DNA of 64,000 nucleotides, taken from positions 62,001 through 126,000 of the forward strand of contig NZ_JAERWK010000019.1 in the NCBI RefSeq assembly GCF_016918035.1, read 5' to 3'. Within the stretch, counting starts at the first letter, position 1. Every line of letters begins with the position of its first letter. The position numbers and the translations under genes were made by a program. This document shows positions 42,400-60,402 of this stretch, piece after piece. The notes beneath the pieces were generated by a model. The model was given only the letters and a program-made list of their open reading frames with translations, was not told the origin of the DNA and ran no database searches. This DNA is from Nakamurella leprariae. GTDB lineage: Bacteria; Actinomycetota; Actinomycetes; Mycobacteriales; Nakamurellaceae.

Positions 42400-42433
42400 G
42401 GAGCCGGGCCGCTCAGCTGAGCGGCCCGGCTCC
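42400..42433. terminator. Bidirectional terminator hairpin
   Basis: A 34-base perfect palindrome: GGAGCCGGGCCGCTCAG (42400-42416) followed directly by its complement (42417-42433). It separates the nitroreductase gene from the convergent response-regulator gene, whose stop codon lies inside the structure. Confidence 0.8.
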
Positions 42434-43090
42434 GGCCCGCACCGGCGAGAACCGGTGCTCCGGCCGTCCGGTGGTGCCGTAGCGGAGCTGCACGTCCAGC
42501 CGGCCCTGGTCGGCCAGCAGGGCCAGGTACCGCTGGGCGGTGGCCCGCGAGATGCCCACCTGTTCGGCCACCTCGGCGGCCGACACCGGTTCGCCGGCCG
42601 CCGCCACCGCCTGCGCCACCGCCTGCTCGGTCAACGCGGAGTGTCCCTTCGGGCGGGTCCCGGCGCCCTGCCCGTGCAACACCCGGATCGCGGCGTCGAC
42701 GGCATCCTGCTGCACCACGTCGGCGCCGTCCAGCAGCGCCCGGTAGCGGCGATAGGCGCCGAGACGGTCCGAGAGTGCCTCGGCGCCGAACGGTTTCACC
42801 AGGTAGGCCAGCGCGCCACGGGACAGGGCGGTCCGCACGGTGCCCGCCTCGGCCGCTGCCGACAGCACGAACACGTCGCAGTCCAGCGACCGGACGAGTT
42901 CGAGGCCGCTGCCGTCCGGCAGGTACAGGTCGACCAGGGCCAGGTCGACCCCGCGGGCGGCCAGCCGCATCGCCTCCGCGACGGAGGCGCAGCTGTCCGG
43001 CTCGGCGAATCCCGGCGTGGCCCGGACGATGTCGGCGTGCAACCGGGCCACCCGGAAGTCGTCGTCGACGACCAGGACGGTCAGCGCCAC
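42413..43090 (-). CDS. CitB/DcuR-type response regulator
   Basis: Regulator of 225 residues. The receiver has DDDF at the N-terminus, the phospho-acceptor Asp in LALVDLYLPDGSGLELVRSL (about residue 54), and Lys in YLVKPFGAEAL. The C-terminal part has a helix-turn-helix, VSAAEVAEQVGISRATAQRY, as in CitB/DcuR proteins. It overlaps the sensor kinase gene by 10 bases. Expected to activate the divergent tricarboxylate transporter cluster in response to the kinase. Confidence 0.92.
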   Translation of the reverse strand: MALTVLVVDDDFRVARLHADIVRATPGFAEPDSCASVAEAMRLAARGVDLALVDLYLPDGSGLELVRSLDCDVFVLSAAAEAGTVRTALSRGALAYLVKPFGAEALSDRLGAYRRYRALLDGADVVQQDAVDAAIRVLHGQGAGTRPKGHSALTEQAVAQAVAAAGEPVSAAEVAEQVGISRATAQRYLALLADQGRLDVQLRYGTTGRPEHRFSPVRAGAGPLS

Positions 43091-44835
43091 GACGCCTCCG
43101 TCTGCGGGGAGCCGGCCGGCCGGCCGACCGGACCGGCCGTGGCGCCTCCGCGGCTCGCCAGGACCCCCGGGAGTCTGGCCACGAACACCGCGCCCGCCGA
43201 CCCGTCGCCGCCGGGCTCGGCCAGCCAGACGTCGCCCCCGGTGGCCCGGGCCACCTGACGGACCAGGCTCAGCCCGAGCCCCCGCCCGGAGCCGATCGGG
43301 TGGCCGGTCACCTCCGGCTCGAACAGGCGCTCTCGCAACGCTTCCGGGACGCCGGGGCCGCTGTCGGCCACCGTCACGTACAGCGTCCCGGCGTCACTGA
43401 GCAGCTCGACGTCGACCCAGCGGTCCGGTACCGGACCGCGCTCGGTGGTGGCTGCATCGACGGCTGCATCGATGGCATTGTCCAGCAGGTTGCCCAGCAC
43501 CGTGGTCACCGCCACCGGGTCGGTGACGAGCTCCGGCAGCCAGGTCTGCGCTCCGATGCGCAGGTCCACGGCGCGTTCGCGGAAGTGCGCCGCCTTGGCC
43601 GACAGGAACGCCTGCACCGACGGGTCGCGCACCGCCTCCAGCCCGTCGAGCAGCGTGCCCAGCGGTCCGGACCCCAGCAGCGTGCGGACGTACTCGTCGG
43701 CCTCGACGCTGCGCCCGGCGGCAATGAGTCCGTGCACGACGTGCAGCCGGTTGGCGAACTCGTGCCGCTGCGCCCGCAGGGCGCTGCTCATCGTCTGCAC
43801 GGCGTCCAACTGGCGGGTGAGCGACTCGATCTCGGTGCGGTCGCGGGCCGACAGCACCACGCCCAGGTCCCGGGCGCCGCGACTGACCGGTCGGACCGAG
43901 CAGACCAGCACGCGGCCGCCGGTGACGACCAGGAGCGGCTGATCGATCGGCGCCGTGGTCGGGGCCGCCGTCCGCAGCCGGTCGGAGATGGCGTGCCGCA
44001 ACGGTGCGGGCACGTCGGCGTCGTCGAGGGTGCGGCCCGGACCGATGCGCGCGCCCAGCAGTCGCCGGGCCTCGTCGTTGGCCACGGTGATCCGACCCGT
44101 GGCGTCCACCGCGACCACCGCGCCGGCGATGCCGCCGAGCACAGCCTCGTGCTCGGAGACCAGTCCGGCCATCTCCTCCGGCTCCAGGCCGAGCGTCAAC
44201 CGTCGCAGCCGGCGGCCCAGCAGCACCGACGCCACCGTGCCCAGGCCGAGGGCGGCCGCCGCGTAGCCCGCCGCGATGAGGAGGTCGGCCCGTAGCGCGG
44301 AGGCCAGCACGTCGGCGTCGATCCCGACGCTGACCGCACCCACCACGACTCCCGACCCGTCCGGGGCGAACACCGGCACCTTGGCCCGGGCGGACTCGCC
44401 CAGGGTGCCGCGCTGCTCGACGACCTCCTCGCCGCCCGCCAGCGGCACCGACGGATCGGTCGACACCGGGCGGCCCAGCTGGGTCGGGTCCGGGTGGGCG
44501 AGCCGGATGCCGCGGTCGTCCGTCACCACCACGAACAGCGCCCCGGTCCGCCCCCGGACGGCTTCCGCCTGCTGCTGCACCGCCCCGGTTGCGAGCTCGG
44601 TGCCGGTCTCCGGGGCGGCGCGGTCGTCGGCCGCCCAGCGCGCCACGGCATCCCGCACCACCGGGTTCTCCGCCGTGCTGCGGGCGACCGCCAGGGCGCG
44701 CTGCCCGTACTCGGTCGACAGCTGACGGTCCAGCAGGGTGCCGAACAGGCTGAAGCCCAGTCCGACGACGGCCGTGACCACGGCCAGCTGCAGCAGGAGC
44801 AGCTGGCCGGTGAACCGCAGCCGGGGACGGCGCAT
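43081..44835 (-). CDS. CitA/DcuS-type sensor histidine kinase
   Basis: Membrane kinase of 584 residues. Helix 1 is LLLLQLAVVTAVVGLGFSLF, followed by an extracytoplasmic PDC sensor (VTDDRGIRLAHPDPTQLGRP, the CitA-type citrate-binding element), helix 2 (LIAAGYAAAALGLGTVASVL), a PAS domain, the phospho-acceptor His in LRAQRHEFANRLHVVHGLIA, and the ATPase boxes NLLDNAIDAA, VADSGPGVP and GSGRGLGLSLVRQV. All of these mark the CitA/DcuS class that senses C4- or C6-carboxylates. ATG 44835 begins the basic tail before helix 1. Confidence 0.92.
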   Translation of the reverse strand: MRRPRLRFTGQLLLLQLAVVTAVVGLGFSLFGTLLDRQLSTEYGQRALAVARSTAENPVVRDAVARWAADDRAAPETGTELATGAVQQQAEAVRGRTGALFVVVTDDRGIRLAHPDPTQLGRPVSTDPSVPLAGGEEVVEQRGTLGESARAKVPVFAPDGSGVVVGAVSVGIDADVLASALRADLLIAAGYAAAALGLGTVASVLLGRRLRRLTLGLEPEEMAGLVSEHEAVLGGIAGAVVAVDATGRITVANDEARRLLGARIGPGRTLDDADVPAPLRHAISDRLRTAAPTTAPIDQPLLVVTGGRVLVCSVRPVSRGARDLGVVLSARDRTEIESLTRQLDAVQTMSSALRAQRHEFANRLHVVHGLIAAGRSVEADEYVRTLLGSGPLGTLLDGLEAVRDPSVQAFLSAKAAHFRERAVDLRIGAQTWLPELVTDPVAVTTVLGNLLDNAIDAAVDAATTERGPVPDRWVDVELLSDAGTLYVTVADSGPGVPEALRERLFEPEVTGHPIGSGRGLGLSLVRQVARATGGDVWLAEPGGDGSAGAVFVARLPGVLASRGGATAGPVGRPAGSPQTEASWR

Positions 44836-45103
44836 GCGGCGACAGTAACGGCCCGGCCGCCGGCGCTGATGCCGTGCGCACAATGCGCAGAAGTCGGGTC
44901 AACGCGGGAAAGCGGCGGGAACGACCAGAACCGCGCGCCGGGCCGTCGCCGGAGTTAGCGTGCTGCACGTCACATCGAGTCGCCGTGCGGCGACGGTGAC
45001 GGGAACGCGGTGCCGGGTTCCCGCGGGGCGCTCGGTCGCCGCGGTGGCTCCGGACCGGCGTCCCCGGCGCCGCCGCCGCGGCCATCGCCGTCCGGGAGCG
45101 CGC

Positions 45104-45574: not shown

Positions 45575-46636
45575 ATGGCATCCACCCGCACTCCTGTTCC
45601 CCCCGGTGTCGACGGCGGGGACGTCGTCCGCGCGGCCTCCCGGCCCCGTCCGCGCCGTCGCTGGCCGATGGTCGTCTGGACGGTGGTCGCGGTGCTGGTC
45701 ATCGGCGCCGGGCTGATCGCCACGGCCCGGTCCGGCGGCGGCGACTCGGCTCGGGCCCGCCTCGCCGTCATCGCCCCGGCTGCCCCCGGTGGCGGCTGGG
45801 ACCTGGTCGCCCGCGAGTCGCAACAGGCGCTGAAGTCCGAGGGTGTGGTCAACAACGTGCAGGTGGTGAACATCCCTGGGGCCGCCGGCACCATCGGACT
45901 GGGCCAGTTGGCCGACATGACCGGCCAGGGCGGCACACTCATGGTCACCGGGACCGTGATGGTGGGCGGGATCATCGCCAACGACAGTGACGCCACCCTG
46001 GCCGACGTCACGCCCATCGCCCGGCTGGCCGAGGACTTCGAGGTCATCGTGGTGCCGGGGGACTCGCCGTACCAGACCCTGGACGAGTTGCTGGAGGCGT
46101 GGCGGGCGGACCCACCGGGCACCGCCATCGGCGGCGGCTCCAAGGGCGGGACCGACCACCTGCTGGCCGGTCTCGTGGCCGAGAGCGCCGGGATCGACCC
46201 GACGCAGCTCAACTACCTCGCGTTCTCCGGCGGTGGCGAGGCGCTCAACGCGCTGCTGGCGAACACGGTGACGGCCAGCATCTCCGGTTACAACGAGTTC
46301 GCCGACCAGATCGAGGCCGGCAACGTCCGGGCACTGGCCATGGGCACCAGGGAGCGCGTCGAAGGCATCGACGTGCCGAGCCTGGGCGAGCAGGGCGTCG
46401 ACGTGGAGCTCACCAACTGGCGTGGGCTGGTCGCCCCGCCCGGCCTGAGCGACGACCAGCGGGAGCAGCTCACCGACATCGTCACCGAGATGGTGCAGGG
46501 CGCGGCCTGGCAGGACACCGTCGCCCGGAACCGTTGGAAGGACACCTTCCTCACCGGTGCGGACTTCGAGCAGTTCATCCAGGCCGAGACCGCCCGGATC
46601 CAGGACATCGCCACCGAACTCGGGATCGGAGCATGA
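45575..46636 (+). CDS. tctC: Tripartite tricarboxylate transporter substrate-binding protein (TctC)
   Basis: Extracytoplasmic binding protein of 353 residues. A basic N-terminus (RPRPRRRWPM) leads into one hydrophobic helix (VVWTVVAVLVIGAGLIATA) without a lipobox, so it is membrane-anchored or cleaved. TctC/Bug motifs: APAAPGGGWDLVARESQQAL, VVNIPGAAGTIGLGQLADM, IGGGSKGGTDHLLAGLVA, SGGGEALNALLANTVTA and NWRGLVAPPGLSDDQREQL. First of the tctCBA genes; ATGA overlaps tctB. Confidence 0.93.
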   Translation: MASTRTPVPPGVDGGDVVRAASRPRPRRRWPMVVWTVVAVLVIGAGLIATARSGGGDSARARLAVIAPAAPGGGWDLVARESQQALKSEGVVNNVQVVNIPGAAGTIGLGQLADMTGQGGTLMVTGTVMVGGIIANDSDATLADVTPIARLAEDFEVIVVPGDSPYQTLDELLEAWRADPPGTAIGGGSKGGTDHLLAGLVAESAGIDPTQLNYLAFSGGGEALNALLANTVTASISGYNEFADQIEAGNVRALAMGTRERVEGIDVPSLGEQGVDVELTNWRGLVAPPGLSDDQREQLTDIVTEMVQGAAWQDTVARNRWKDTFLTGADFEQFIQAETARIQDIATELGIGA

Positions 46637-47361
46637 GGATGAGCATGGACGATCGGAGCGCGGGTCGGGAACCCGCGTCGGGTGCGGTCGCCGCGGTGCC
46701 GGCACGGACCGGCGGGGCGACCACCCCGCCGGACGACGCCGGGGCGGCGGGACCGCTGGGAACGGCCCGCTGGGGCGGCCTCTCGGAGCTGGTGGTGCCG
46801 CTGGTGCTGCTCGCGCTGGCCGGCTTCCTCATCGTGGGCACGCTGGGCATGGAGGTCCCGCCGAGCGTGCAGGTGCCGGGGCCGACGTTCTTCCCCTGGC
46901 TGGTCATCGGGCTGCTCGTGGTCATGGCCGTGCTGTCGGCCGTGTCGACGCTGCGCGCCCGGGCCCGCCAGCAGGCGTCGTCGTCACCGGCTGCCGGCGA
47001 CCGTATCGACCGTGTCGACCGTGTGGCTGAGGAGACGCGCGACGCCGACGGCGATCCCATCGACGAGACGCCCCCGGACGTGCCGCCCGGACGGGCGCCG
47101 TGGCCGGCCGGGGCGGTGAGCGACTGGCGGGCGCTGGGCATCGTGCTCGGCTCGCTGGTGGCCTTCATCGTGCTGCTCCGGCCGGTCGGCTGGATCCTGG
47201 CCGCCGGGCTGCTGTTCTGGGGCGTCGCGTACGCCATGGGGTCCCGGCGTCCGGTGCTCGACATCTCGGTCGCCCTGGTCATGTCGTCCGCCATCCAGCT
47301 GATCTTCGGCAACCTGCTCGGGCTGAACCTGCCGGCCGGCTTCCTGGAAGGGGTGCTCTGA
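46633..47361 (+). CDS. tctB: Tripartite tricarboxylate transporter small membrane subunit (TctB)
   Basis: Four-helix membrane protein of 242 residues, longer than the usual 150-170 because of a 45-residue N-terminal tail and a charged 60-residue loop between helices 2 and 3 (AAGDRIDRVDRVAEETRDAD). Helices: LVVPLVLLALAGFLIVGTLG, WLVIGLLVVMAVLSAV, ALGIVLGSLVAFIVLLRP and a C-terminal hairpin. Starts at 46633, 46639 and 46645 are possible; GGAG favours 46639, the ATGA overlap 46633. Confidence 0.88.
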   Translation: MRMSMDDRSAGREPASGAVAAVPARTGGATTPPDDAGAAGPLGTARWGGLSELVVPLVLLALAGFLIVGTLGMEVPPSVQVPGPTFFPWLVIGLLVVMAVLSAVSTLRARARQQASSSPAAGDRIDRVDRVAEETRDADGDPIDETPPDVPPGRAPWPAGAVSDWRALGIVLGSLVAFIVLLRPVGWILAAGLLFWGVAYAMGSRRPVLDISVALVMSSAIQLIFGNLLGLNLPAGFLEGVL

Positions 47362-47362
47362 C

Positions 47363-48871
47363 GTGGGTGACCAACTCGGGAACCTGATCGGCGGCTTCGG
47401 GGACGCGCTCACCCCGATGAACCTGATGTGGGTGTTCGTCGGCTGCCTGCTCGGCACCGCGGTCGGCGTGCTGCCCGGGCTGGGATCGTCGATGGCGGTG
47501 GCGCTGCTGCTGCCGATCACCTTCACTCTCGACCCGATCGCGGCCTTCATCATGTTCGCCGGCATCTACTACGGGGGGCTGTTCGGCGACTCGACCACGG
47601 CCATCCTGATGAACACACCGGGCAACTCCACCGCCATCGCGTCCACGTTCGAGGGCCACCGGATGGCCAAACGCGGCCGCGCGCCCCAGGCCCTGGCCAC
47701 CGCGGCGATCGGGGCGTTCGTGGGCGGCATCCTGGCCACCATCCTGGTGGTGTTCTTCGCCCCGGTGCTGGCCGACCTGGCCACCGTGTTCGGCCCGGCC
47801 GAGTACTTCGCGCTGGCCATCGTGGCGTTCGTGGCCACCGCCGCGGTGGTGGCCGACTCCGCGGTGAAGGGGCTGGCCGCCCTGGCCATCGGCCTTTCCC
47901 TGGCCATGGTCGGCGTCGACTCGATCAGCGGGGCGTCGCGCTACACGTTCGGCGTGCCGTCGCTGCTGGACGGCATCGACATCGTGGTCATCACCGTGGG
48001 GCTGCTGGCGGTGGGGGAGGTGCTGCACGTGGCGTCCCGGATCCACAAGGACGCCACCGTCACGGCCATGACGATCAGCGGACGGCCCTACCTCGACCGG
48101 CGGGAGTTCCGCGAGGCGCTGCCCGCCTGGTTGCGCGGATCGGCCTTCGGCCTCCCGTTCGGCGCCATCCCGGCCGGCGGGGCCGAGATCCCGACCTTCC
48201 TGGCCTTCGGGCTGGAACGCCGGCTGGACCGCCGGCGCAAGCACCCGCAGTTCGGTCGTGGCGCGATCCGCGGGCTGGCCGCGCCGGAGTCGGCTGCCAA
48301 CGCCACGGCCGGCTCGGCGATGGGATCGCTGCTGGCACTTGGGCTTCCGACGTCGGCCACGGCGGCCATCATGCTGGCCGCATTCCAGCAGTACGGCATG
48401 CAGCCGGGGCCGCTGCTGTTCACCCGCAACGCGGACCTGGTCTGGGCCCTGCTGGCCAGCCTGTTCGTCGGCATGGTGGTGCTGCTGATCATCAACCTGC
48501 CGTTCGCGCCGATCTGGGCCAAGCTGCTGCTCATCCCCAAGCCGTACCTGTACGCCGGCATCACCGTGTTCGCGGTGCTCGGCGTGTACGCGGCCAGCTC
48601 GTCGCTGGTCGACCTGATCCTGCTGGTGCTCATCGGGCTGATCGGCTTCATGCTGCGGCGCTACGGCCTGCCGCTGGCCCCGGTGCTCATCGCGGTCATC
48701 CTGGGTCCGCTGGCCGAGACCAGCCTGCGCCGCACCCTGGCCGTCAGCGAGGGCGACCCGGGGGCGTTGCTGGACTCGGCCCTGGCGCTGAGCCTGTACG
48801 GCCTGCTGGCCCTGGGCATCCTGGTCGTCGCGGTGAACAAGGTGCGCAACCGGGCCAAGGTCGACATCTGA
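47363..48871 (+). CDS. tctA: Tripartite tricarboxylate transporter large permease (TctA)
   Basis: Membrane permease of 502 residues with the TctA signatures GVLPGLGSSMAVALLLPITF, YYGGLFGDSTTAILMNTPGN, GLPFGAIPAGGAEIPTFLAF and APESAANATAGSAMGSLLAL (GLPTSATAAIML follows). About 11-12 helices. With TctB it imports citrate, tricarballylate or a related carboxylate using an ion gradient. GTG start 1 base after the tctB stop, with GGAAGGGG upstream. A hairpin at 48903-48925 ends the operon. Confidence 0.94.
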   Translation: MGDQLGNLIGGFGDALTPMNLMWVFVGCLLGTAVGVLPGLGSSMAVALLLPITFTLDPIAAFIMFAGIYYGGLFGDSTTAILMNTPGNSTAIASTFEGHRMAKRGRAPQALATAAIGAFVGGILATILVVFFAPVLADLATVFGPAEYFALAIVAFVATAAVVADSAVKGLAALAIGLSLAMVGVDSISGASRYTFGVPSLLDGIDIVVITVGLLAVGEVLHVASRIHKDATVTAMTISGRPYLDRREFREALPAWLRGSAFGLPFGAIPAGGAEIPTFLAFGLERRLDRRRKHPQFGRGAIRGLAAPESAANATAGSAMGSLLALGLPTSATAAIMLAAFQQYGMQPGPLLFTRNADLVWALLASLFVGMVVLLIINLPFAPIWAKLLLIPKPYLYAGITVFAVLGVYAASSSLVDLILLVLIGLIGFMLRRYGLPLAPVLIAVILGPLAETSLRRTLAVSEGDPGALLDSALALSLYGLLALGILVVAVNKVRNRAKVDI

Positions 48872-48951: not shown

Positions 48952-49800
48952 TCAGCCCGGCGCGGGATGCGTCCGGGATCCACGTCCCCAGTCGTCCTCG
49001 GCGTCCATCCGGGCCAGTCGTAGTCCCCATCCCTTGGCAGCGGTGTCCGCCAGGATGCGGTCGAGGAAGGCCCTGGCCTGATGGTCGTCGCCTTCGACGT
49101 AATGGAAGTACTTGGCCAGCGCGTACAGGCCGTTGACGGCGCCGCCCTCGTTGTCCGGTCCGACCGTGTCGAGGAACTGCTCGGGCGACATGGTGCCGTT
49201 GAGCAGCAGGCAGATGTCCCGGTAGCCCTCGTCGTCACCGATCACCGGGACGACGAGGGTGTCGGCAGTGATGCCGGCGACGGCCGCCCGGGCGCGCTCC
49301 ATGTCGCCGAGGTGGGCCGCAGCCGTCCAGATCCAGTCGGCCTCACAACTGATCAGGTCCCGGTCGTGCCGAGCGGAGACCTCGTCGGCCTTCTCGAACA
49401 GTTCGATGGCGGTGCGGTAGTCGCGTCGCAGGTAGTGACCGACGCCGAGGTAGTGCCACTTCCAGTTGTCCTCGGCGTCCAACCGCACGGACAGCGTGAG
49501 GTCGGCGATGCCTTCGGCGGTGCGACCGGTGTTGAGGTACTTGCGGCCTCGGTTGTAGTACTGATGCGCGTCGAAGGGATCCAGCACCAGCGCCCGGGAG
49601 AAGTACTCGATGGCGACCTCGGCGTCGTGGTTGAAGTTGAGGATGGCCTTGGCGGTCAGCAGCGACCGGTTGCCCGGATCCGAGCTCAGGGCGGCATCGA
49701 CCTTGGTCTCCTCCTCGGGCTCCATCCAGATGTAGCCCTTGGCCGGTCCACCGCCGTAGGCGATTTCGAGCATCTGCCGACGGCTCGCATCCCTGTCCAT
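48952..49800 (-). CDS. TPR-repeat protein, paralogue 3 of 3
   Basis: Soluble helical protein of 282 residues without signal peptide. It shares GPAKGYIWMEPEEETKVDAA at the N-terminus with its neighbour (GPAKGYVWMDQEEEARIDAR). TPR units include AEVAIEYFSRALVLDPFDAH, YYNRGRKYLNTGRTAEGIAD and LDAEDNWKWHYLGVGHYLRR. Then come DLISCEADWIW and the shared block VVPVIGDDEGYRDICLLLNG. TPRs are protein-binding scaffolds; a partner cannot be named. AGGGAG precedes the ATG. Last gene of the transporter/amidohydrolase operon, 11 bases after paralogue 2. Confidence 0.85.
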   Translation of the reverse strand: MDRDASRRQMLEIAYGGGPAKGYIWMEPEEETKVDAALSSDPGNRSLLTAKAILNFNHDAEVAIEYFSRALVLDPFDAHQYYNRGRKYLNTGRTAEGIADLTLSVRLDAEDNWKWHYLGVGHYLRRDYRTAIELFEKADEVSARHDRDLISCEADWIWTAAAHLGDMERARAAVAGITADTLVVPVIGDDEGYRDICLLLNGTMSPEQFLDTVGPDNEGGAVNGLYALAKYFHYVEGDDHQARAFLDRILADTAAKGWGLRLARMDAEDDWGRGSRTHPAPG

Positions 49801-49811
49801 GCTGCGTCTCC

Positions 49812-50732
49812 CTAGTTCCCGCTCGCTGCGGGTGGTGTCGTGCTGGTGGTCGGAGCCGGACCGCCGAGCGCGGCCGCGGCCCGCTCCCACTCGTCCCGGT
49901 CGTGCAGCGCCAGCTGGTAGCCCCAGCCCTTCTGCCGGGACAGGATCCCGTTGCCGCGGTCGTCGGGCGGATCCGGCAGGCTGAGGACCCTGTGCAAGTA
50001 CTCCAGGGCCGTGGGGATGTCGCGCTCGAGGTGGTAGTGGTACCGGGCGACCGCGAACAGTGCCCCGTAGCTGCCACCCTCCCCGCCGGGATCGATGCGC
50101 GCGACGTACTCGTCGACCGGGATCGTGCCGTTCAGCAGCAGGCAGATGTCCCGGTACCCCTCGTCGTCACCGATCACCGGCACCACCTTGGTCTCCGGTG
50201 TCACCGTGGCCACCACCCGGGCCGCTTCGTCCGGACGACCGAGGTGGACCAGACACAGCCACATCCAGTCGATCTCGCAACTGATCAGGTCGTCGTCGTG
50301 CCGGGCGGCGACCGTCATCGCCGTGCGGAAGTGTCCGAGTGCCACCTCGTAGTCGCGCAGCAGGTACCGCGCCACCCCGAGGAAGTGCCACTTCCAGTTG
50401 TCCTCGGCGTCCAGGCGCACCGCCAGCTCCAAGGCGGCCAGGGCCTCGGAGCGCCGGAACGTGTTCAGGTAGACACGTCCTCGGTTGTAGTGCTGGTGGG
50501 CGTCGAACGGCTGGACGGCCAGCGCGCGGCTGAAGCACTCGGCGGCGACGTCCGGGTCCCAGTTCAGATTCAGGATGCCCTTGGCCGTCAGCAGGGAGCG
50601 GTCGGCGGGATGCTCGGCGAGCCGGGCGTCGATCCGCGCCTCTTCCTCCTGGTCCATCCAGACGTACCCCTTGGCGGGACCGCTGCCGTAGCCGATCCGC
50701 TTGATCTGCTCCCAGGTCTTCTCGCGGTCCAT
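49812..50732 (-). CDS. TPR-repeat protein, paralogue 2 of 3
   Basis: Protein of 306 residues, closely similar in layout to the genes on both sides. GPAKGYVWMDQEEEARIDAR, AAECFSRALAVQPFDAHQHY, YNRGRVYLNTFRRSEALAAL, LDAEDNWKWHFLGVARYLLR, DLISCEIDWMWLCLVHLGRP and VVPVIGDDEGYRDICLLLNG recur. The last about 20 residues are a Thr/Pro/Ala tail. Its ATG shares one base with the stop of paralogue 1 (TGATG), so translation is coupled. Function unknown; tandem duplication of one ancestral gene is evident. Confidence 0.85.
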   Translation of the reverse strand: MDREKTWEQIKRIGYGSGPAKGYVWMDQEEEARIDARLAEHPADRSLLTAKGILNLNWDPDVAAECFSRALAVQPFDAHQHYNRGRVYLNTFRRSEALAALELAVRLDAEDNWKWHFLGVARYLLRDYEVALGHFRTAMTVAARHDDDLISCEIDWMWLCLVHLGRPDEAARVVATVTPETKVVPVIGDDEGYRDICLLLNGTIPVDEYVARIDPGGEGGSYGALFAVARYHYHLERDIPTALEYLHRVLSLPDPPDDRGNGILSRQKGWGYQLALHDRDEWERAAAALGGPAPTTSTTPPAASGN

Positions 50733-51544
50733 CAGCTCGCACCGCCGCGCAGCGCGACCCGCAGCGGAAGGTCCCGGGCGGCCATCTTGCGGCCCCAACC
50801 TGACTTCGCCGGGTCGAGGTCGAGCACCTGTCGCAGCAGTTGCACCGAACCCTCGACGTCGCCGAGCTGGCGGAAGCGGTGATTGGCCAGCCCGTACAGC
50901 TGGTTGCCGGCCTCGGCGACGTCGGCACGGTCGATGCCGCCGAGGTAGTCCTGCTCATCGAGCAGCCCTCGGTACAACAGGATGCGGCGCTTGTAGGTCG
51001 CCTCGGTGTCGACCACGGGGGTGTCCGGCCCGACCAGGGTGAGGCACCGGTCGGCGGCCTCGCGATCACCCGCCTGGTGATGGCAGTTCCACAGCCAGTC
51101 CACCTCGAACGGCAGCAGCGGCTCCTCGTTGCGCTGGTTGACCTCGATGGCCGTCTCGAACGATGCGATCGCCTCGTCGTACCGCTCCAGGAAGTACAGG
51201 GCCACGCCCTGGAAGTGCCACTTCCAGCCGTCGTCCGGATCGAGTGCGGTGGCGGTCCGCAGGTCGGCCAGGCCCTCCTCGAACCGGTCCTGACCCATGT
51301 ACTTCCGGCCGCGGTTGTACCGGCTGTGGGACGCGAGCGGCTGGATCCCCAGGGCGATCGAGTAGCACCGGATCGCCTCGTCGGTGCTGCCGCACACCAC
51401 GGCGCGGGCCGTCCAGAGGTAGTAGTCCAGCGGGTCCTCGGCCAGCCTCGCGTCGATGCTGGCCAGCTCCTCGGCGTCGACCGCCAGCCGGCCTTTGGTG
51501 GCCAGGCCGCGGTACATGATCCGCCGCTGTTCCTGCGAGATCAT
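50732..51544 (-). CDS. TPR-repeat protein, paralogue 1 of 3
   Basis: Protein of 270 residues, the most diverged of the trio. It lacks the GPAKGY and GDDEGYRDIC blocks but keeps DARLAEDPLDYYLWTARAVV, YNRGRKYMGQDRFEEGLADL, LDPDDGWKWHFQGVALYFLE and FEVDWLWNCHHQAGDREAA. ATGA overlap with the amidohydrolase stop (51541-51544) ties it to that enzyme. It could be a dedicated partner or assembly factor of the amidohydrolase or the transporter; this is inference. Confidence 0.85.
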   Translation of the reverse strand: MISQEQRRIMYRGLATKGRLAVDAEELASIDARLAEDPLDYYLWTARAVVCGSTDEAIRCYSIALGIQPLASHSRYNRGRKYMGQDRFEEGLADLRTATALDPDDGWKWHFQGVALYFLERYDEAIASFETAIEVNQRNEEPLLPFEVDWLWNCHHQAGDREAADRCLTLVGPDTPVVDTEATYKRRILLYRGLLDEQDYLGGIDRADVAEAGNQLYGLANHRFRQLGDVEGSVQLLRQVLDLDPAKSGWGRKMAARDLPLRVALRGGAS

Positions 51545-52743
51545 CGGTTCCTCTCCGCCGGTCGGGGCCGGTCGTCCGGTCGGTTGGCATGAACCACGCC
51601 GTCGATCACCGTGTGCTCGCACACGGACAGGCTGCTGAAGGGGTGGCCGCTGAACAGGGCGAGGTCGGCGTCCTTGCCCACCTCGATCGAGCCGGTCCGG
51701 TCGTCGATGCCGAGGACCTGCGCGGCGGTCGAGGTGACCGCCCGCAGGGCCGCGTCCAGCGGAAGTCCGCGGGCGATGGCCGCCCCCACGAAGAACGGCA
51801 GGAACCGGGTACCGCTGCGGGAGTCCTGGGTGAGGCAGAACCGGACCCCGGCCCGCTCGAGCAGGACGGCGGTGTCGAGCCGCGCGTTCCAGGTCTCCTG
51901 CTTCTCCGGCGCCATGTCCAGGGGCCCGACGATGCAGGTGACGCCACGCTCGGCGAGGAAGTCGGCGATCTTCCACGACTCGGTGGCGTGGTCGATCACG
52001 AAGCGCAGCCCGAACTCCTCGGCGATGCGCGTGGCGGTGACGATGTCGTCGGCACGGTGTGAGTGGATGCGGCAGGTCCGCTCGCCGCGCACCACCGGCA
52101 CCAGCGGCTCGAGCTGGAAATCGGGATCGGGTGCGGCGGAACCGCGCTCGGCCGCCAGCAGTCGGTCCGAGTAGGTCCGGGCCCGGGTCAGTGTCTCCCG
52201 GAGCATGGCGGCGGTGCCCATCCGGGTCAGCGGCGTCTTGTTCTGCTGGATACCGTGGATCCGCTTGGGGTTCTCGCCCAACGCGAACTTGATCTGCACC
52301 GGCGCGTCGAGGACCAGGTCGTGCACGGTGGTGGCCTCGCGGGTCTTGAACACGACGTTCTGCCCACCGATGACGTTGCCGGAGCCGGGCAGCGCGCACA
52401 CCGTCGTGAACCCGGCCGCCCGGACGACCGGGATCGCGGCGTCGGCCGGGTTGAGCGCATCGAGCGCCCGCACCGCCGGGGTGATGGGACTGGTGATCTC
52501 GGTGACGTCACTGACGCTGGGCGTCCAGGCCGGCTCGGCCTTGACCGAGATGTGGGTGTGCACGTCGATCAGTCCGGGCGTGACCCAGCGGCCGGTGCCG
52601 TCGATCACGGTGGCGCCGTCCGGAACGGCCAGTCCGGCACCGACCGCGGCGATCCGGGTGCCGTCGACCAGCACGTCGCCGCCCTCGATGATCTGTCCGG
52701 TGCCGGTCAGCACGGTCGCGTTGGTGATGGCGAGCATGCTCAT
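51541..52743 (-). CDS. Amidohydrolase, imidazolonepropionase-like
   Basis: Metal-dependent TIM-barrel hydrolase of 400 residues. MLAITNATVLTGTGQIIEGG and VIDGTGRWVTPGLIDVHTHI are the usual N-terminal strands with the HxH metal site; CRIHSHRADDIVTA and FVIDHATESWKIAD carry further His ligands, and the late Asp is in FCLTQDSRSG. GSIEVGKDADLALFSGHPFS closes the protein. Relatives hydrolyse cyclic amides (imidazolonepropionate, cyclic imides) or dipeptides (prolidase-like). It has ATGA overlaps with the cupin gene upstream and TPR-1 downstream, and it shares an operon with a peptide-type ABC importer. Confidence 0.88.
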   Translation of the reverse strand: MSMLAITNATVLTGTGQIIEGGDVLVDGTRIAAVGAGLAVPDGATVIDGTGRWVTPGLIDVHTHISVKAEPAWTPSVSDVTEITSPITPAVRALDALNPADAAIPVVRAAGFTTVCALPGSGNVIGGQNVVFKTREATTVHDLVLDAPVQIKFALGENPKRIHGIQQNKTPLTRMGTAAMLRETLTRARTYSDRLLAAERGSAAPDPDFQLEPLVPVVRGERTCRIHSHRADDIVTATRIAEEFGLRFVIDHATESWKIADFLAERGVTCIVGPLDMAPEKQETWNARLDTAVLLERAGVRFCLTQDSRSGTRFLPFFVGAAIARGLPLDAALRAVTSTAAQVLGIDDRTGSIEVGKDADLALFSGHPFSSLSVCEHTVIDGVVHANRPDDRPRPAERNR

Positions 52744-53111
52744 CCGGCCATGCCCGGTCGGCGATCGACCGTGTAGCACTTCCGGGCCGTCTCGGTCACC
52801 CGCCAGATGCCCGACCATCCGTCGAGCACGTGCAGGACGGCGCCCGGCGCGATCCGGGTGACCGTCCCGTCGGCGTGCTCGATCACACCGGCGCCCGACA
52901 CGAAGTGCATGAACTCGGTGAGACCGGTCTTGGTGGAGTGGAACTCGCCCGGGGTCACCTCCCAGATGCCGATCTCGACGCCGTCGGCACGGTGCAGCGT
53001 CCGGGACGCCGCGGTGGGCTCGCCGCTGATCACGCGAGCCGGTCCCGCGCTGGGGGTGAGGGTGGCGTCCAGGATCGAGTCCACGTCGTAGTGGGGGGCC
53101 GGGCCCGTCAT
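52740..53111 (-). CDS. Cupin-domain protein (DUF861/Cupin_3)
   Basis: Small beta-barrel protein of 123 residues. The cupin motif appears as GIWEVTPGEFHSTKTGLTEF, then MHFVSGAGVIEHADGTVTRI and APGAVLHVLDGWSGIWRVTE. Cupin_3 proteins are related to ureidoglycine aminohydrolase and to sugar- or polyamine-related enzymes; several of the usual metal His residues are replaced, so activity is uncertain. It overlaps the amidohydrolase gene by 4 bases and probably acts on the same compound. Confidence 0.85.
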   Translation of the reverse strand: MTGPAPHYDVDSILDATLTPSAGPARVISGEPTAASRTLHRADGVEIGIWEVTPGEFHSTKTGLTEFMHFVSGAGVIEHADGTVTRIAPGAVLHVLDGWSGIWRVTETARKCYTVDRRPGMAG

Positions 53112-53186: not shown

Positions 53187-54932
53187 TCAGATCACTTCGG
53201 GGACGGCGACCCGGCCGCGGGCACCCGGTACCGCGGCCAGCAGCATGCGGGTGTAGTCGTGCGACGGCTCGGTCAGCACCTGTTCGACCGGTCCGGCGTC
53301 GACGACCTTGCCCTGGTACATGACGACCACGGTCGTGCACAGGTACGAGATGACGCCGAGGTCGTGGGAGATGATGGCGTACGCCACGTTCCGCCGACGG
53401 CGCAGCCGGTTGAGCAGGTTCAGCACGGTGGCCTGCACCGAGACGTCCAGCGCCGAGACGGGTTCGTCGGCCACGATCAGCCGCGGATCCAGGGCGAGGG
53501 CCCGGGCGATCCCGACCCGCTGCCGCTGTCCACCGGAGAGCTGCCGCGGTCGCCGCTCGCCGAAGTGCTCGGCCAGGCCGACCTCGCCGAGCAGTTCGAC
53601 GACCCGCCGGTGCCGTTCGGTCGCTGGCACACCGGCGGCCAGCATCGGCTCGCCGATGCTGTCGGCCACGGTCCGGCGGGGATCGAGCGCGGAGGTGCTG
53701 TCCTGGAACACGAACTGCACGTCGCGGCGCCAGGTGGTCCGTGCCTCGCGGTCCAGAGCGGTGACCGGCCGGCCGTCGAAACGGATCTCACCCGAGTCGG
53801 GTTCGGCCAGGCCTACGAGCATCCGGGCGAGCGTCGTCTTGCCGGATCCCGATTCGCCGACGATGCCGAGCGACTCCCCGGGACGGATGGACACCGAGAC
53901 GCCCTCCACCGCGGTGCGCCGGTGGGCCGGGCGCCACGGCAGTCGCCCGCCGGGCAACGCGAACGCCTTGTGCACGTCGATCGCCTCGGCGATCGGGACC
54001 AGGTCCTGGTCGACCGGGGTGTCGACCGGACGGCCGTCGTCCAGGTCGGCGACCGGTGCGTCCCCGGTGCCGCCCGCGCCGGCGCCGTCCGCCGCGGCCG
54101 CGCCGCTCGGCCGGTGCAGTCCGACCAGGGCGAGATCGCGGCGGCGGGCCAGGCTCGGCATGGCGGCGACCAGGCTCTGCGTGTACTCGTGCTGCGGTCG
54201 GTCGATCACGTCCAGGGTCGGTCCGCGCTCCACGATGCGGCCGAGGTTGATGACGTTGACCCGGTCGGCCCGATCGCGGATCACGTCCAGGTCGTGGCTG
54301 ACCAGCAGCACGGCGAGATCGAGAGTGCTGCGCAGGTGGTCCAGCAGATCGAGGATCTGGGCCTGCACGCTGACGTCGAGTGCGGTGGTCGGTTCGTCGG
54401 CGATCAGCAGGCGGGGATGACGGGCCAGCGCCAGGGCGATCACGACTCGCTGCGCGAGGCCGCCGGAGAGCTCATGCGGGTACTGCCGCAGACGTTCCAT
54501 CGGTCGATTGATCCCGACCGCGTCCAGCAGTTCCAGCGACCGGACCATGGCGGCGCGCAGGTTCGGCCGCTCCGCGCGCAGCAGCGCCTCGCGGAGCTGG
54601 GTGCCGACCATCATCCGCGGGTTCAGCGCCTTCATGGGCGCCTGGAACACCACGCCCACGTCGTGCCGGCGGACCTGCTGCAGATCCTGGTGGCGGGCGT
54701 CGATGATGCTCCGGCCGCCGAGTGAGATGGTGCCCGCGGTGATCCGCGCGGCCGGTGGCAGCAGGCCGACCACGGCCATCGCCGTCATCGACTTGCCGGA
54801 ACCGGATTCGCCGACCAGTCCGACGATCTCACCGCGGGCGATGTCGAGGTCGAGACCCCGGACCGCGTGCACGGTGCCGCGACGGGTCGGGATGTCGATC
54901 TCCAGGCCGGAGATCTGCAGCAACGGCTCCAC
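53187..54932 (-). CDS. Peptide-type ABC transporter ATPase, DppD-DppF fusion
   Basis: Fused double ATPase of 581 residues. Domain 1: Walker A GESGSGKS, signature [20 protein letters not shown], Walker [21 protein letters not shown]. Domain 2: [56 protein letters not shown]. Each domain ends in the oligopeptide-type C-terminal extension. A roughly 50-residue Gly/Ala/Asp linker (about 275-325) joins them. GTG 54932 is chosen for the strong GGAAGGGAAG upstream; an open frame reaches 55016. It powers the permeases encoded just upstream. Confidence 0.94.
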
Positions 54933-55008
54933 GGACGCTTCCCTTCCTGCGGTGGTGCTCCCGGTGTCGGGATCAGTGCCGAGGGTGGCGGGCGGGGACG
55001 GTCGGCGC

Positions 55009-55896
55009 TCAATCACTGGCGACCGAGAACCGATCGGCCAGGTAGTCGCCGATCACCTGGGTGGACAGCAGCAGCGCGAGCAGAGCCGACCCTGGGAACA
55101 CCGAGATCCACCAGGCCGCACCCAGCTGTGTCTGCCCGTCCGAGATCATCACGCCCCAGTCGGCGGTGGGTGGTTGCACGCCCATACCGAGGTAGCTCAA
55201 TGACGCCTCGGTGAGCACCGCTCCGGCGAAGTTGACGGTGCCGGTGACGGCGAGCAGGGGTAGGGCGCTGGGCGCGATGTGCCGGATCATCGTTCGGCGC
55301 CAGCCCATGCCGGCCAGCCGTGATGCCTCCACGTACGTGTGCTGGGACACGGATTGCACATGACTGCGGACCACCCGGAAGTGCAGCGGCCAGGACTCGA
55401 TCGCGATCACGATGATCACGTTCTGCAGGTTGGTGCCGAACAGCACGAGCACCAGCAGGGCCAGGATGAGACCGGGGATGGACATCTGGATGTCGGCGAT
55501 GCGGCCCAGCAGGTTGTCCAGCCACCCGCCGCGGCTCCCCGCGGCGATCCCGGCGATCACTCCGATGATCATCGCCACCAGCACCGCGGAGACGCCCACC
55601 AGCAACGGCGGGCCGCCGCCGTGCAGGACCCGGGTGAAGATGTCGTAACCGAGCACGTCGGTGCCGAACCAATGGGTGCCACTGGGTGGCTCGAGCATGT
55701 CCCGCAGGTTCTGCTGGTTCGGCTCGTACGGGGCGATGAGCGGCGCCAGCACGGTGCCCAGCACGATGATCAGGAACACCGCGCCGGCGATCATCGCGCC
55801 CCACGGCCGCCGGGCCCGGGTGCGCCCGGGCCGTGCTGCCTCCGGCGAACCGCCCTCGGCGGCGAGCGCGAGCTTCAGGGACGATCCGGCGCTCAT
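55009..55896 (-). CDS. Peptide-type ABC transporter permease, DppC-like
   Basis: Membrane permease of 295 residues with five to six helices. Landmarks: PSGTHWFGTDVLGYDIFTRV (the DppC N-terminal motif), GVSAVLVAMIIGVIAGIAAG, and the ATPase-contact loop EASRLAGMGWRRTMIRHIAP. SYLGMGVQPPTADWGVMISD is the usual C-terminal motif. ATG 55896 overlaps the DppB-like stop (ATGA). Confidence 0.94.
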   Translation of the reverse strand: MSAGSSLKLALAAEGGSPEAARPGRTRARRPWGAMIAGAVFLIIVLGTVLAPLIAPYEPNQQNLRDMLEPPSGTHWFGTDVLGYDIFTRVLHGGGPPLLVGVSAVLVAMIIGVIAGIAAGSRGGWLDNLLGRIADIQMSIPGLILALLVLVLFGTNLQNVIIVIAIESWPLHFRVVRSHVQSVSQHTYVEASRLAGMGWRRTMIRHIAPSALPLLAVTGTVNFAGAVLTEASLSYLGMGVQPPTADWGVMISDGQTQLGAAWWISVFPGSALLALLLSTQVIGDYLADRFSVASD

Positions 55897-56909
55897 GCGC
55901 GGCTCCTCGGGTTGATGATCGCCACGACGAGGTCGACGACCAGGCTGGCCACCACGAACCCGACGCAGATGAGGATGACGCCGGCCAGAGCGACCGGGAA
56001 GTCTCGCGTGTTCACCGCATTGACCAGCAGCTGGCCGACACCGGGCCAGGCGAAGACCTGCTCGGTGATCACCGCACCACCCAGGATGCCGCCGACCTGC
56101 ATCCCGATCAGGGCGATCACCGGTCCGAGCGCGTTCACCGCGATGTGGCGCCGTCGGACCGTCCGCGGTCGCAGGCCCTTCGCGGTGGCGGTGGCGACGT
56201 GCTCCTCGACCTCCATCTCCCTGATGGTCGATCGGAACAGCCGCGCGACGGCCGGCGCCACGTAGGCGGCCAGCGTGACCGCGGGCATGACCAGGTTCTT
56301 CCACGAACCCATGCCGCTGGTGGGCAGCAGCTTCCAGGTCACGGCGAAGAACAGGATGAGCAGCAGGCCGAGCAGGAAGCTGGGCGTGGACTGCAGCACC
56401 ATCAGCAGTTTCATCGGCACCACGCGAGCCAGTCGGAAGCGGCTGGTGGCGCACCAGTATCCGACCAGCAGTCCGACGACGGAGCCGAGGGCGACGCCGG
56501 TCACCGACAGCAGCAGGGTGGCGGGCACGCGGGCCAGCACCACCGAGAACGCCGGTTCGTCGGTGTACAGCGAGTTGGGGAACTCACCGGTCACCAGATT
56601 GCGCAGGAAGAGCAGGTACTGCACGAAGATCGGCCGGTCGAACCCGTAGAGCCGGGCGATGCGGTCGATCTCCTCCTGGGTCGCCTCTTCGGAGGCCATC
56701 ACCTGGGCCGGGTTGCCGGTCGCCATGATCATCAGGAACACGATGGACACCGCACCCCAGACGGCGACGATGCCGGCGAGGACCCGGGTGACCACGAAGC
56801 GGAGCGTGACCGGTGAGCGGAGCGTGGTGCGCAGGACGTCCCGGCGCGTCAGCGGCGACGGCGTGGGGGGCGCCGCGGTGGCCGGCGGAGCCGGGTGCTG
56901 AAGGACCAC
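55893..56909 (-). CDS. Peptide-type ABC transporter permease, DppB-like
   Basis: Membrane permease of about 338 residues. After a polar N-terminus come RVLAGIVAVWGAVSIVFLMI, the substrate-channel region YGFDRPIFVQYLLFLRNLVT and GEFPNSLYTDEPAFSVVLAR. The EAA loop is TATAKGLRPRTVRRRHIAVN, and VITEQVFAWPGVGQLLVNAV closes it. GTG 56909 with GGAG 8 bases upstream is preferred over a frame open to 57086. First gene of an eight-gene minus-strand unit; a 23-base palindrome lies 231 bases upstream. Confidence 0.92.
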   Translation of the reverse strand: MVLQHPAPPATAAPPTPSPLTRRDVLRTTLRSPVTLRFVVTRVLAGIVAVWGAVSIVFLMIMATGNPAQVMASEEATQEEIDRIARLYGFDRPIFVQYLLFLRNLVTGEFPNSLYTDEPAFSVVLARVPATLLLSVTGVALGSVVGLLVGYWCATSRFRLARVVPMKLLMVLQSTPSFLLGLLLILFFAVTWKLLPTSGMGSWKNLVMPAVTLAAYVAPAVARLFRSTIREMEVEEHVATATAKGLRPRTVRRRHIAVNALGPVIALIGMQVGGILGGAVITEQVFAWPGVGQLLVNAVNTRDFPVALAGVILICVGFVVASLVVDLVVAIINPRSRA

Positions 56910-57428
56910 GTTGCGGACTCCGTTCGGCGAGAGGTGATGATGCGCGGCATCGGTCACCCACGCCGACGGCGTGGATGCGGGGACAACACGGGGTGGGAAC
57001 GCGGCAGGCGGCGTCTCCGTCGCAGGGCCCGGGGCGTCGCGGACGCCGGACCGGTGGGCTGCGTGCGCAGGGCGCGACGCGACCACGACGGTGATCGTCC
57101 TGCACGGTGATCGGGCGGCCCGTGGTGGGTGTCACGGACGTCACGACGTCTCACGTCGTGACCCGGTCGCGAACGACCGGATGCCGTCAGCTTGACCGAC
57201 AGGTGTTACAGCCCAGTTACGGGCGACCGGCGGTCACTGCGCCGACGATCACCGCGACTGGTCCGGCGATTCTGCCCGACGCCCGGGTCCGAGGCAATGC
57301 TCCGCTCGGCCGTGGCGGCAGACCGGACTGCGCCGACGCCCGGCAGGTCGGACCCACGACCGCGAGGACCCGCCGAGCGACGTGTGTCCGGGTGGTCGGT
57401 TCGCGGGCGATCAGTACTGTGCACCGCC
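56910..57428. other. Divergent regulatory region, about 520 bases
   Basis: Holds promoters for the permease operon (leftward) and the dehydrogenase gene (rightward), and the palindrome at 57140-57162. TACTGT at 57414-57419 is a good -10 for a leaderless dehydrogenase mRNA. No coding sequence is convincing. Confidence 0.6.
57140..57162. promoter_or_regulatory. Palindromic operator of the peptide-transporter operon
   Basis: Perfect inverted repeat with 10-base arms, GTCACGACGT and ACGTCGTGAC, around CTC. The core CGACGT-N3-ACGTCG recurs at 58584-58600 before the binding-protein gene. Confidence 0.75.
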
Positions 57429-58457
57429 ATGTCTCCCAATCCACCTTCCGCCAGTACTCCGCTGCCCGCGTCGAGCGACACCCGTACCCGGTCCGGTCGA
57501 GGACCGGTGATCGTCACCGTGCCGCGTCAGGACGTGCTCGATGGAGTCGGTGACGCACCGGACGGTCACGAGTACCGGGTCTGGGATCTGCAGTCACCGG
57601 CGGCCGACGTCCTCGGCGCCGACGACGCGGCCCGGATCGGCATGGTGCTGTGGCCGTATCCGGCACCGAACATCGAGAAGTCTTTGTTGACAACCCTTCC
57701 CGAGCTCCGGCTGGTCCAGGTGATGACCGCCGGGTACGAGGGTGTGGCCGACCTGCTCCCGGACGGGGTGGGGCTGGCCAACGCCCGCGGCGCCCACGCG
57801 ACCAGCACCGCCGAGTTCGCCGTCACGCTGGTGCTGGCCAAGCTCCGCGGCATCGACCGGTGGATCCGCAACGCCGCCGAGGGACGGTGGCGCAGCGAGC
57901 GGCGGCCGTCCCTGGCCGACCGCTCCGTGCTCGTCGTCGGCGCCGGCAGCATCGGCAGCGCCATCCACGATCGCCTGGTGCCCTTCGAGGTGACCGTGAC
58001 CAGGGTCGGCACCACGGCCCGGGACGACGAGCGCGGCCACGTCCACGCCGCGAGCGAGCTGTTCGACCTGTTGCCGGACCACCAGGTCGTGATCCTGATC
58101 GCTCCGCAGACGCCCGAGACCACCGGTCTGGTCGATGCCCGGTTCCTGGCCGCGATGCCGGACGGCGCGCTGCTGGTCAACGTGGCTCGGGGGCCGCTGG
58201 TGGTCACCGACGACCTGCTCGCCGCGGTGCGCAGCGGACGCGTCGAGGCGGCCCTGGACGTCACCGATCCGGAGCCCCTGCCGGCCGACCATCCCCTCTG
58301 GCACGAGCCGGGCGTCATCATCGCGCCGCACGTCGGTGGGTTCTCGACCGCCGGGCCGCCGCGGATGCACCGGGTGCTGCGCGAGCAGATCGAGGCGTTC
58401 GCCGCCGGTGCCCCGTCGCCGAACCTGGTGGTTCCGCCGCGGGAGCGCCGCGGCTGA
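57429..58457 (+). CDS. D-isomer-specific 2-hydroxyacid dehydrogenase family protein
   Basis: Rossmann-type oxidoreductase of 342 residues. The cofactor motif is VLVVGAGSIGSAIHDRLV (GxGxxG) and the catalytic Arg lies in LLVNVARGPLVVTDDLL. The Glu-His pair is probably in DPEPLPADHPLWHEP and IIAPHVGGFS. Members reduce 2-oxoacids to D-2-hydroxyacids or act on phosphoglycerate-like compounds. An upstream TACTGT ends 9 bases before the ATG and no ribosome site is seen, so a leaderless transcript is likely. It sits between the two halves of the peptide-transport regulon but on its own promoter. Confidence 0.88.
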   Translation: MSPNPPSASTPLPASSDTRTRSGRGPVIVTVPRQDVLDGVGDAPDGHEYRVWDLQSPAADVLGADDAARIGMVLWPYPAPNIEKSLLTTLPELRLVQVMTAGYEGVADLLPDGVGLANARGAHATSTAEFAVTLVLAKLRGIDRWIRNAAEGRWRSERRPSLADRSVLVVGAGSIGSAIHDRLVPFEVTVTRVGTTARDDERGHVHAASELFDLLPDHQVVILIAPQTPETTGLVDARFLAAMPDGALLVNVARGPLVVTDDLLAAVRSGRVEAALDVTDPEPLPADHPLWHEPGVIIAPHVGGFSTAGPPRMHRVLREQIEAFAAGAPSPNLVVPPRERRG

Positions 58458-58824: not shown

Positions 58825-60402
58825 ATGAAACTACCCGCTCGCCTGCTCCGGGCCCTCGCCGCTGTCACGGCGGCCGGGTTGCTGCTGTCCGCCTGTGGTG
58901 GCGGCGATTCCGGATCCACGGGCACCTCCGGGTCCAGTGCGTCCAGCTCGTCGGGCTCCACCGGGACCGCGGACCGCGACACCGTCAACATCGCGATCGA
59001 CCCGCTGCTGACCCTCGATCCCGGGGTGGCTCGAGGCGCCAGCACCGACCTGACGATCATGAGCCAGATCTACTCCAGCCTCACCCGTTTCAACGCCGAC
59101 AGCGAACTGGTCGGCGACCTGGCCACGGACTGGGAGCAGACGTCGCCCACCGAGTGGACCTTCACCCTGGTGGAGGGCGCCACGTTCGTCGACGGCGCCC
59201 CGCTCGACGCGAACACCGTGGTCTGGAACATGGAGCGGATGCTCGACGAGTCCAATGCGCTGCCGGGCGCCACGGGCATCGACAAGATCGAGAGCGTCAC
59301 CGCGCCGGACGCGACCACGGTCGTGATCACGACTTCGTCCCCGTTCGTCGACCTGCCGCGCCGGCTCAGCTGGATCTACTTCCTCGATCCGACCTGGGCC
59401 GAGGCCAACAACCCGGCCACCGCGGCCAACCCGTCCGGCGTCTACGATCTGGTCAGCTGGTCCACCGACGGGGTCGTCGAACTCGTCCGGAACGAGAACT
59501 ACTACGGCGAACCGGCTCCCATCCAGTACGCCAACTACCGGGTGTACGCCAACGCCGCCACCAAGCTGGCCGCGCTGCAGGCCGGTGAGCTGGACGCGGT
59601 CGCCACGGTCGCGCCGATCGACGTCCCGCAACTGGAGAGCTCGGGGAACATCACGGTGATCCCGGTGGTCTCCTCCGGCCACCACATCATCCGGTTCAAC
59701 CTGGACCACGAGGCCACCGCCGACGTCCGGGTGCGCCAGGCGATCAACTACGCCATCGACAAGCAGGCCATCACCGAATCCCTGTACCAGGGGCTCGTCG
59801 AGCCACTGAGCACCCAGCTGATGGGTCCCGGGTTCTCGGGCTACGACGAGGACCGGGAGAGCTGGCCGTACGACCCGGAGCGGGCTCGCGAACTGCTGGC
59901 CGACGCCGGCTACGGCAACGGCCTCGCCCTGGAGATGGCGGTGCCGGAGGTCAGCAACTTCGTGTCGGCCTCCGAGGCGTCACAGATCATCGCCGCGCAG
60001 CTGTCCGAGGTGGGCATCACCCTGAAGACCCAGACGATCCCCGGCAACATCTGGGCCGAGTACCAGCGCACCAAGGACACTGCGCCGGACATGATCTACC
60101 AGGGCTTCGGGTCCTCCTCGATCAGCAGCACCGAGCTGCTCAACTTCGTCCAGAGTGCCGGTATCTACACCTGGGGGCAGGTGCCGGCGGCGCTCGACCA
60201 AGCGGTCATCGCCCTGCAGGACGCACCCGACGAGGCGACGCAGCTCGAGCTCATCGCCGAGGTCACCGAGATCCTGTACGACAAGGCGCTCGCCGTGTAC
60301 CTGTGGCCGCGGCCGCAGGTGAATGCCGTCGCCAACGGGCTCAACTGGCCGGGCCGCGCCGACACCTACATCCGTGCGTACGAGATGTCCTGGACCGCCT
60401 GA
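58825..60402 (+). CDS. Peptide-type ABC transporter substrate-binding lipoprotein (SBP_bac_5)
   Basis: Extracytoplasmic binding protein of 525 residues. Basic start, hydrophobic segment and lipobox LLLSACGGG (Cys about residue 24), then a Ser/Gly/Thr linker. SBP_bac_5 features: INIAI-type start (VNIAIDPLLTLDPGVARGAS), LVGDLATDWEQTSPTEWTFT, FVDGAPLDANTVVWNMERML, VRQAINYAIDKQAITESLYQ and ERARELLADAGYGNGLALEM. It is the missing receptor for the permeases and ATPase at 53-57 kb, with which it shares an operator. AAAGGG precedes the ATG. Confidence 0.94.
   Translation: MKLPARLLRALAAVTAAGLLLSACGGGDSGSTGTSGSSASSSSGSTGTADRDTVNIAIDPLLTLDPGVARGASTDLTIMSQIYSSLTRFNADSELVGDLATDWEQTSPTEWTFTLVEGATFVDGAPLDANTVVWNMERMLDESNALPGATGIDKIESVTAPDATTVVITTSSPFVDLPRRLSWIYFLDPTWAEANNPATAANPSGVYDLVSWSTDGVVELVRNENYYGEPAPIQYANYRVYANAATKLAALQAGELDAVATVAPIDVPQLESSGNITVIPVVSSGHHIIRFNLDHEATADVRVRQAINYAIDKQAITESLYQGLVEPLSTQLMGPGFSGYDEDRESWPYDPERARELLADAGYGNGLALEMAVPEVSNFVSASEASQIIAAQLSEVGITLKTQTIPGNIWAEYQRTKDTAPDMIYQGFGSSSISSTELLNFVQSAGIYTWGQVPAALDQAVIALQDAPDEATQLELIAEVTEILYDKALAVYLWPRPQVNAVANGLNWPGRADTYIRAYEMSWTA

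Follow-up and report, generated by a model that had tools for sequence, protein, structure and literature searches.

Three tandem TPR proteins encoded with an amidohydrolase and a dipeptide-type importer in Nakamurella leprariae, candidate hydrolase docking partners

Three TPR genes in a dipeptide-type importer operon

The window analyzed here, a 64,000-nt stretch of Nakamurella leprariae DNA with a GC content of 71.5%, carries three consecutive minus-strand ORFs, TPR1, TPR2 and TPR3, located 3′ of an amidohydrolase gene and sharing an operon with a dipeptide-type ABC importer. They correspond to the three tandem TPR paralogues announced in a preliminary description of the sequence, and all are TPR proteins (Pfam TPR clan), the TPR_1 and TPR_2 models exceeding their gathering scores in each. 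The features considered are the following:

48952-49800 (-), TPR3, 282 aa, sister of TPR2
49812-50732 (-), TPR2, 306 aa, start ATG at 50732
50127-50177 (-), TPR2 block around GDDEGYRDICLLLNG, approximately residues 186-202, predicted loop and first helix of hairpin V; all 16 relatives have Y193 and G202
50238-50285 (-), TPR2 block ISCEIDWMWLCLVHLG, residues 150-165, predicted first helix of TPR-like hairpin IV; all 16 relatives have W156
50732-51544 (-), TPR1, 270 aa, orthologue of L008:2591-3397 and L009:9980-10798
51541-52743 (-), amidohydrolase, 400 aa, ATGA overlap with TPR1
52740-53111 (-), cupin_3 protein, ATGA overlap with the amidohydrolase
53187-55016 (-), fused DppD-DppF, dipeptide/oligopeptide-type ABC ATPase
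55009-55900 (-), DppC-type permease (ORF open from 56454, start near 55900 estimated)
55893-57086 (-), DppB-type permease
57192-58457 (+), D-2-hydroxyacid dehydrogenase, divergent arm
58825-60402 (+), SBP_bac_5 substrate-binding protein, divergent arm
60537-61532 (+), asparaginase, divergent arm

Translational coupling had been proposed for all three TPR genes, along with an overlap between the first of them and the amidohydrolase gene. That overlap is present (4 nt, ATGA), and TPR1 and TPR2 share 1 nt (TGATG), so the proposal stands at these two junctions. TPR2 and TPR3 do not overlap but are separated by an 11-nt gap containing a GGGAGA box, so coupling of the third gene is no more than a possibility. 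GC3 reaches 0.88-0.90 in the TPR2 and TPR3 ORFs. A promoter and terminator scan found nothing, which at 71% GC says little. The amidohydrolase retains its metal-site motifs, HTH at residues 62-64, HSH at 227-229, H252 and D307 (within DVHTH, HSH, DHATE and QDS), and its nearest solved structure is 3OOQ, a full-length relative (E = 8e-81) that we take to be TM0814; our literature search returned no paper on the function of the 3OOQ amidohydrolase.

On its other side the TPR operon faces a converging TctC/TctB/TctA set (tripartite tricarboxylate transporter), TctA and TPR3 being just 80 bp apart, and behind it a sensor kinase/response regulator pair (window 45575-48871 (+) and 42413-44883 (-)); Pfam confirmed TctC only in this region and the rest was judged from sequence. 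With 25 SBP_bac_5 genes, the 4.47-Mb host genome is strongly committed to dipeptide/oligopeptide-type uptake.

TPR2 and TPR3 are 55% identical and TPR1 is 36-37% identical to either. All the shared motifs named earlier are present: the DxxWKWH block reads DDGWKWHFQGV in TPR1, DNWKWHFLGV in TPR2 and DNWKWHYLGV in TPR3, YNRGR occurs in all three proteins, and the (C/F)E-x-DW block reads FEVDWLW, CEIDWMW and CEADWIW, respectively. Among the three paralogues GPAKGY and VVPVIGDDEGYRDICLLLNG are restricted to TPR2 and TPR3, again as described. The YNRGRxY motif lies close to the ordinary TPR helix-A consensus. None of the three proteins has a hydrophobic N-terminus or a Cys within the first 35 residues; lacking a recognizable signal peptide or lipobox, they are read as probably cytosolic.

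Recurrence of the amidohydrolase-TPR unit and its relatives

Scanning 84,980 species genomes with a degenerate pattern, a non-exhaustive search since it needs exact conserved heptamers, returned two loci, L008 and L009, both in Clostridia metagenome-assembled genomes. At L008 an amidohydrolase, a TPR1 and a TPR2-like gene follow each other with the same order and ATGA overlap as in the window, and are succeeded by genes for a MATE protein, a substrate-binding protein, an S9 peptidase and DppBCDF. Identities between the window and L008 are 66% for the amidohydrolase, 56% for TPR1 and 45% for TPR2, versus 37% for DppB, 38% for DppC and 25% for the substrate-binding protein, so that the hydrolase and the TPR proteins, rather than the importer, stand out as the conserved unit. 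This module of amidohydrolase, TPR1 and TPR2, kept across two phyla, is newly described here, and the link to the amidohydrolase drawn in the preliminary description gains from the conserved gene order in another phylum. Since the layout recurs there and profile searches match relatives in other genomes at E-values down to 1e-121, the three-TPR observation lies far beyond chance. Two amidohydrolases of about 42% identity (L047 and L048) have no member of the TPR family nearby, which indicates that the amidohydrolase fold does not generally need a TPR partner.

At L009, TPR1 is found alone beside sugar-acid genes (neighbors judged from sequence). This solitary gene adjoins an integrase-like ORF (L009:9980-11660), possibly an insertion boundary.

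Profile searches of genome samples added G341, which the pattern scan had missed like the other finds of these searches, and G714, G1043, G1071, G1273, G1290, G1178 and G1095. Outside the module, Bacillota genomes carry further members of the family, some next to S9 or M19 peptidase genes and some within dpp operons. G341 has two separate tandem TPR pairs (L017 and L018), the second arranged as TPR-TPR-S9 peptidase. In G714, G1043 and G1071 (L028, L029 and L033) an M19 dipeptidase gene is followed by a TPR gene and then, where the contig is long enough, by DppABCDF. The order is TPR-DppABCD at L041 (G1273) and DppABC-TPR-GntR-M19-DppD at L042 (G1290). The members at L009, in the L017 pair and at L040 have no adjacent hydrolase, and the L043 member sits on a short contig. 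An SBP_bac_5 gene lies within 8 kb at three of six loci (chance P = 0.002), a rough estimate from SBP_bac_5 counts that ignores contig ends and takes the loci as independent; the arrangement of the operons themselves carries more weight. Weak matches in G869 and G984, as well as those in G064, G066 and G078, were set aside as partial.

Some of these neighborhoods hold further genes. The L017 pair lies near genes for a threonine ammonia-lyase, a DUF1177 protein (itself of unknown function) and a carbon-nitrogen hydrolase (L017:3488-10159). G341, with two tandem TPR pairs and a single SBP_bac_5 gene, shows that Dpp importers are not an obligatory companion of the family. The long operon at L028:73-15446 and L033:698-15270 encodes an N-acyl-D-amino-acid deacylase-like protein, a ferredoxin and an aldehyde ferredoxin oxidoreductase, continuing with the M19 dipeptidase, TPR, DppABCDF, an M24 peptidase and a phosphate butyryltransferase; its gene content resembles that of a complete cassette for peptide fermentation.

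Within Actinomycetota no other member was found in 16 congeners, a 399-genome sample of the order and a 232-genome sample of the phylum. L008 and L009 belong to the same Clostridial order, which was hence sampled twice. This rare and patchy distribution makes horizontal acquisition the most likely origin of the TPR gene set.

Family signature and predicted fold

Sixteen proteins were aligned with these relatives included. R84, W156, Y193 and G202 are invariant in all of them, and D155 and W158 are each kept in 13. The window proteins carry the family signature (R84 of hairpin II, DW-x-[WFY] of hairpin IV, and Y193 plus G202 of hairpin V), as may be expected of a pattern derived from the same 16 sequences. 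Matches of the set in Pfam, NCBIfam, PADLOC and the PDB are to generic TPR only, with no named family; the PADLOC anti-phage defense models gave only weak partial TPR matches (E ≥ 3e-4), plasmid searches with the TPR proteins only generic TPR matches at up to 59% query coverage, and a literature search with the terms used no paper naming such an operon. The preliminary description had assigned no function to the proteins, and profile searches agree in matching no characterized family. The 16 proteins are, on sequence grounds, an unnamed TPR family.

In a tree of these proteins, window TPR1, L008 TPR1 and L009 form a TPR1 clade (support 92/97), TPR1 being 54-56% identical to its orthologues versus 36-37% to its own paralogues. 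TPR2 pairs with TPR3 as its sister (99/98), and L008 TPR2 joins this pair at the next node (100/98). This grouping, together with presence in both phyla, argues that the split between TPR1 and TPR2/3 is old, and TPR2 and TPR3 appear to be the product of a later, lineage-specific duplication. The polarity of the conserved block differs from what had been proposed, namely its loss in paralogue 1. Before G202, TPR1 reads EATYKRRILLYRG (YKRRILLYRG), identically in L008 TPR1, and the outgroup counterparts are SYKRRVLMYKG, SYKKRVLLYNG and AYYRRILLYKG. The GDDEGYRDICLLLNG-type block is confined to the TPR2/3 clade, where the L008 version is GDDDGYKNVCLLLGG. TPR1 holds the older form, common to its orthologues and resembled in outgroups, so the GDDEGYRDICLLLNG form of TPR2/3 is derived; GLA.KG rather than GPAKG is likely the ancestral state.

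AlphaFold2 models of TPR1 and TPR2, built from six-row alignments (pLDDT 89.9 and pTM 0.88 for TPR1; 82.7 and 0.81 for TPR2), are all-helical solenoids that begin around residue 25 and end with the C-terminal helix. In the TPR2 model the conserved motifs all fall on first helices of hairpins: YNRGR in 78-90, NWKWHFLGV in 112-124, CEIDWMW in 150-163 and GYRDICLLLNG in 190-200. The suggestion that the conserved block lies outside the TPR scaffold is not upheld, CExDWxW and GDDEGYRDICLLLNG being placed in the first helices of hairpins IV and V; its likely functional importance is. First helices of TPR hairpins usually line the concave groove.

In Foldseek comparisons with the PDB, NlpI in its Prc and MepS complexes ranks first for the TPR2 model (E 3e-6) and is the best natural protein for the TPR1 model (E 2e-6), for which designed consensus TPR proteins score slightly better E-values. 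The alignments cover 261-289 columns with TMq of 0.54-0.67 and TMt of 0.62-0.70, the same fold over the full length; for TPR solenoids of comparable length, TM values of 0.6-0.7 say little about shared function.

Docking on hydrolases and competing readings

NlpI is an outer-membrane lipoprotein of E. coli and a documented adaptor that holds and directs peptidases and peptidoglycan hydrolases, Prc and MepS among them (PMC5686067, PMC7049810). TPR1 and TPR2 resemble it (PDB 1XNF, 5WQL, 8XUD) in the TPR solenoid, in length and in the company of hydrolases, whereas fold alignment gives only about 16-20% identity and the window proteins have no lipoprotein signal. The curated NCBIfam NlpI model (NF008391) scores 18.9 bits for TPR1 and 17.8 for TPR3 against a cut-off of 250, TPR2 being unlisted, and since both this score and the signal fail, TPR1-3 are not NlpI; by analogy they may nonetheless work like it. 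LbcA of P. aeruginosa is likewise a TPR partner that activates a hydrolase, the protease CtpA, but differs from the window proteins in its 11 TPRs, its separate N-terminal adaptor domain and its lipoprotein nature (PMC11021448).

The TPR proteins are inherited with an amide-cleaving enzyme and sited in peptide-import operons of unrelated bacteria. From this we put forward, at roughly even odds in our own judgment, that small cytosolic TPR proteins of this kind are non-catalytic, NlpI-like docking partners of amide/peptide hydrolases in peptide-uptake operons. At the locus studied, the Dpp-type importer encoded alongside the TPR proteins would bring in a peptide or an acylated amino acid for the likewise co-encoded amidohydrolase with its metal-ligand motifs. 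TPR1 and TPR2/3, seemingly two old subfamilies kept together, would bind this enzyme as a mixed complex through the conserved first helices of their hairpins, as conserved coupling and fold suggest, and once bound may stabilize or activate it, or hold it near the importer. A point against docking is the diversity of the partner hydrolases. They fall into at least two unrelated folds, the TIM barrel of the amidohydrolase and M19 enzymes versus the alpha/beta-hydrolase of S9, and this makes a single fixed docking surface less plausible.

The repeated siting of TPR genes within Dpp operons could also point to the imported peptide itself. The TPR proteins would then be intracellular receptors or chaperones comparable to RRNPPA proteins without the HTH, the groove holding the peptide, which would be handed on to the hydrolase or have its presence signaled, and the conserved aromatic and charged residues do fall on first helices, the usual groove side. 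RRNPPA receptors (Rap, NprR, PlcR, AimR) are intracellular TPR proteins that bind internalized peptides, and Rap has lost its HTH; they differ, however, in having five or nine TPRs and often an HTH (PMC12700828). Neither for TPR1 nor for TPR2 do the top 50 fold matches of the model include an RRNPPA structure, the proteins gave no HTH domain match, and one family member alone gave a marginal AimR match (E = 0.006). Moreover, it is the amidohydrolase-TPR unit that is conserved and not the importer. We consider a receptor role unlikely.

Residence by chance of generic TPR proteins, engaged in some unrelated housekeeping interaction, would fit the abundance of TPR proteins, the exclusively generic model matches, the rare and patchy occurrence of the family and the members at L009, L017 and L040 that lack such context. 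It is hard to reconcile with the same order and 4-nt overlap in two phyla at 45-66% identity, or with hydrolase or dpp neighbors that recur in lineages sharing only 19-26% identity, and is in our view distinctly improbable. Docking on the importer ATPase or permease, coupling import to hydrolysis or regulating transport, is suggested by L041 and L042, where the TPR gene is inside a dpp run with no directly adjacent hydrolase gene, but we think it very improbable, as no dpp genes occur in the stretches read at L017, L018 and L040 and the importer components of the window and L008 share 25-38% identity against 66% for the amidohydrolase.

Docking on hydrolases can be extended to a general statement: unnamed cytosolic NlpI-like adaptors would join amidohydrolase, M19 or S9 enzymes and Dpp/Opp importers into peptide-processing complexes, with TPR1 and TPR2/3 specialized in the amidohydrolase version. 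We offer this extension tentatively and consider it rather unlikely. Envelope TPR adaptors such as NlpI and LbcA are known to bind, and sometimes to activate, their hydrolases; if this reading is right, cytosolic breakdown of nutrient peptides would follow a comparable principle, and a family annotated merely as "TPR repeat protein" would gain a testable role and a signature. The locus provides a compact test system, with one enzyme and two TPR subfamilies in a unit conserved across phyla.
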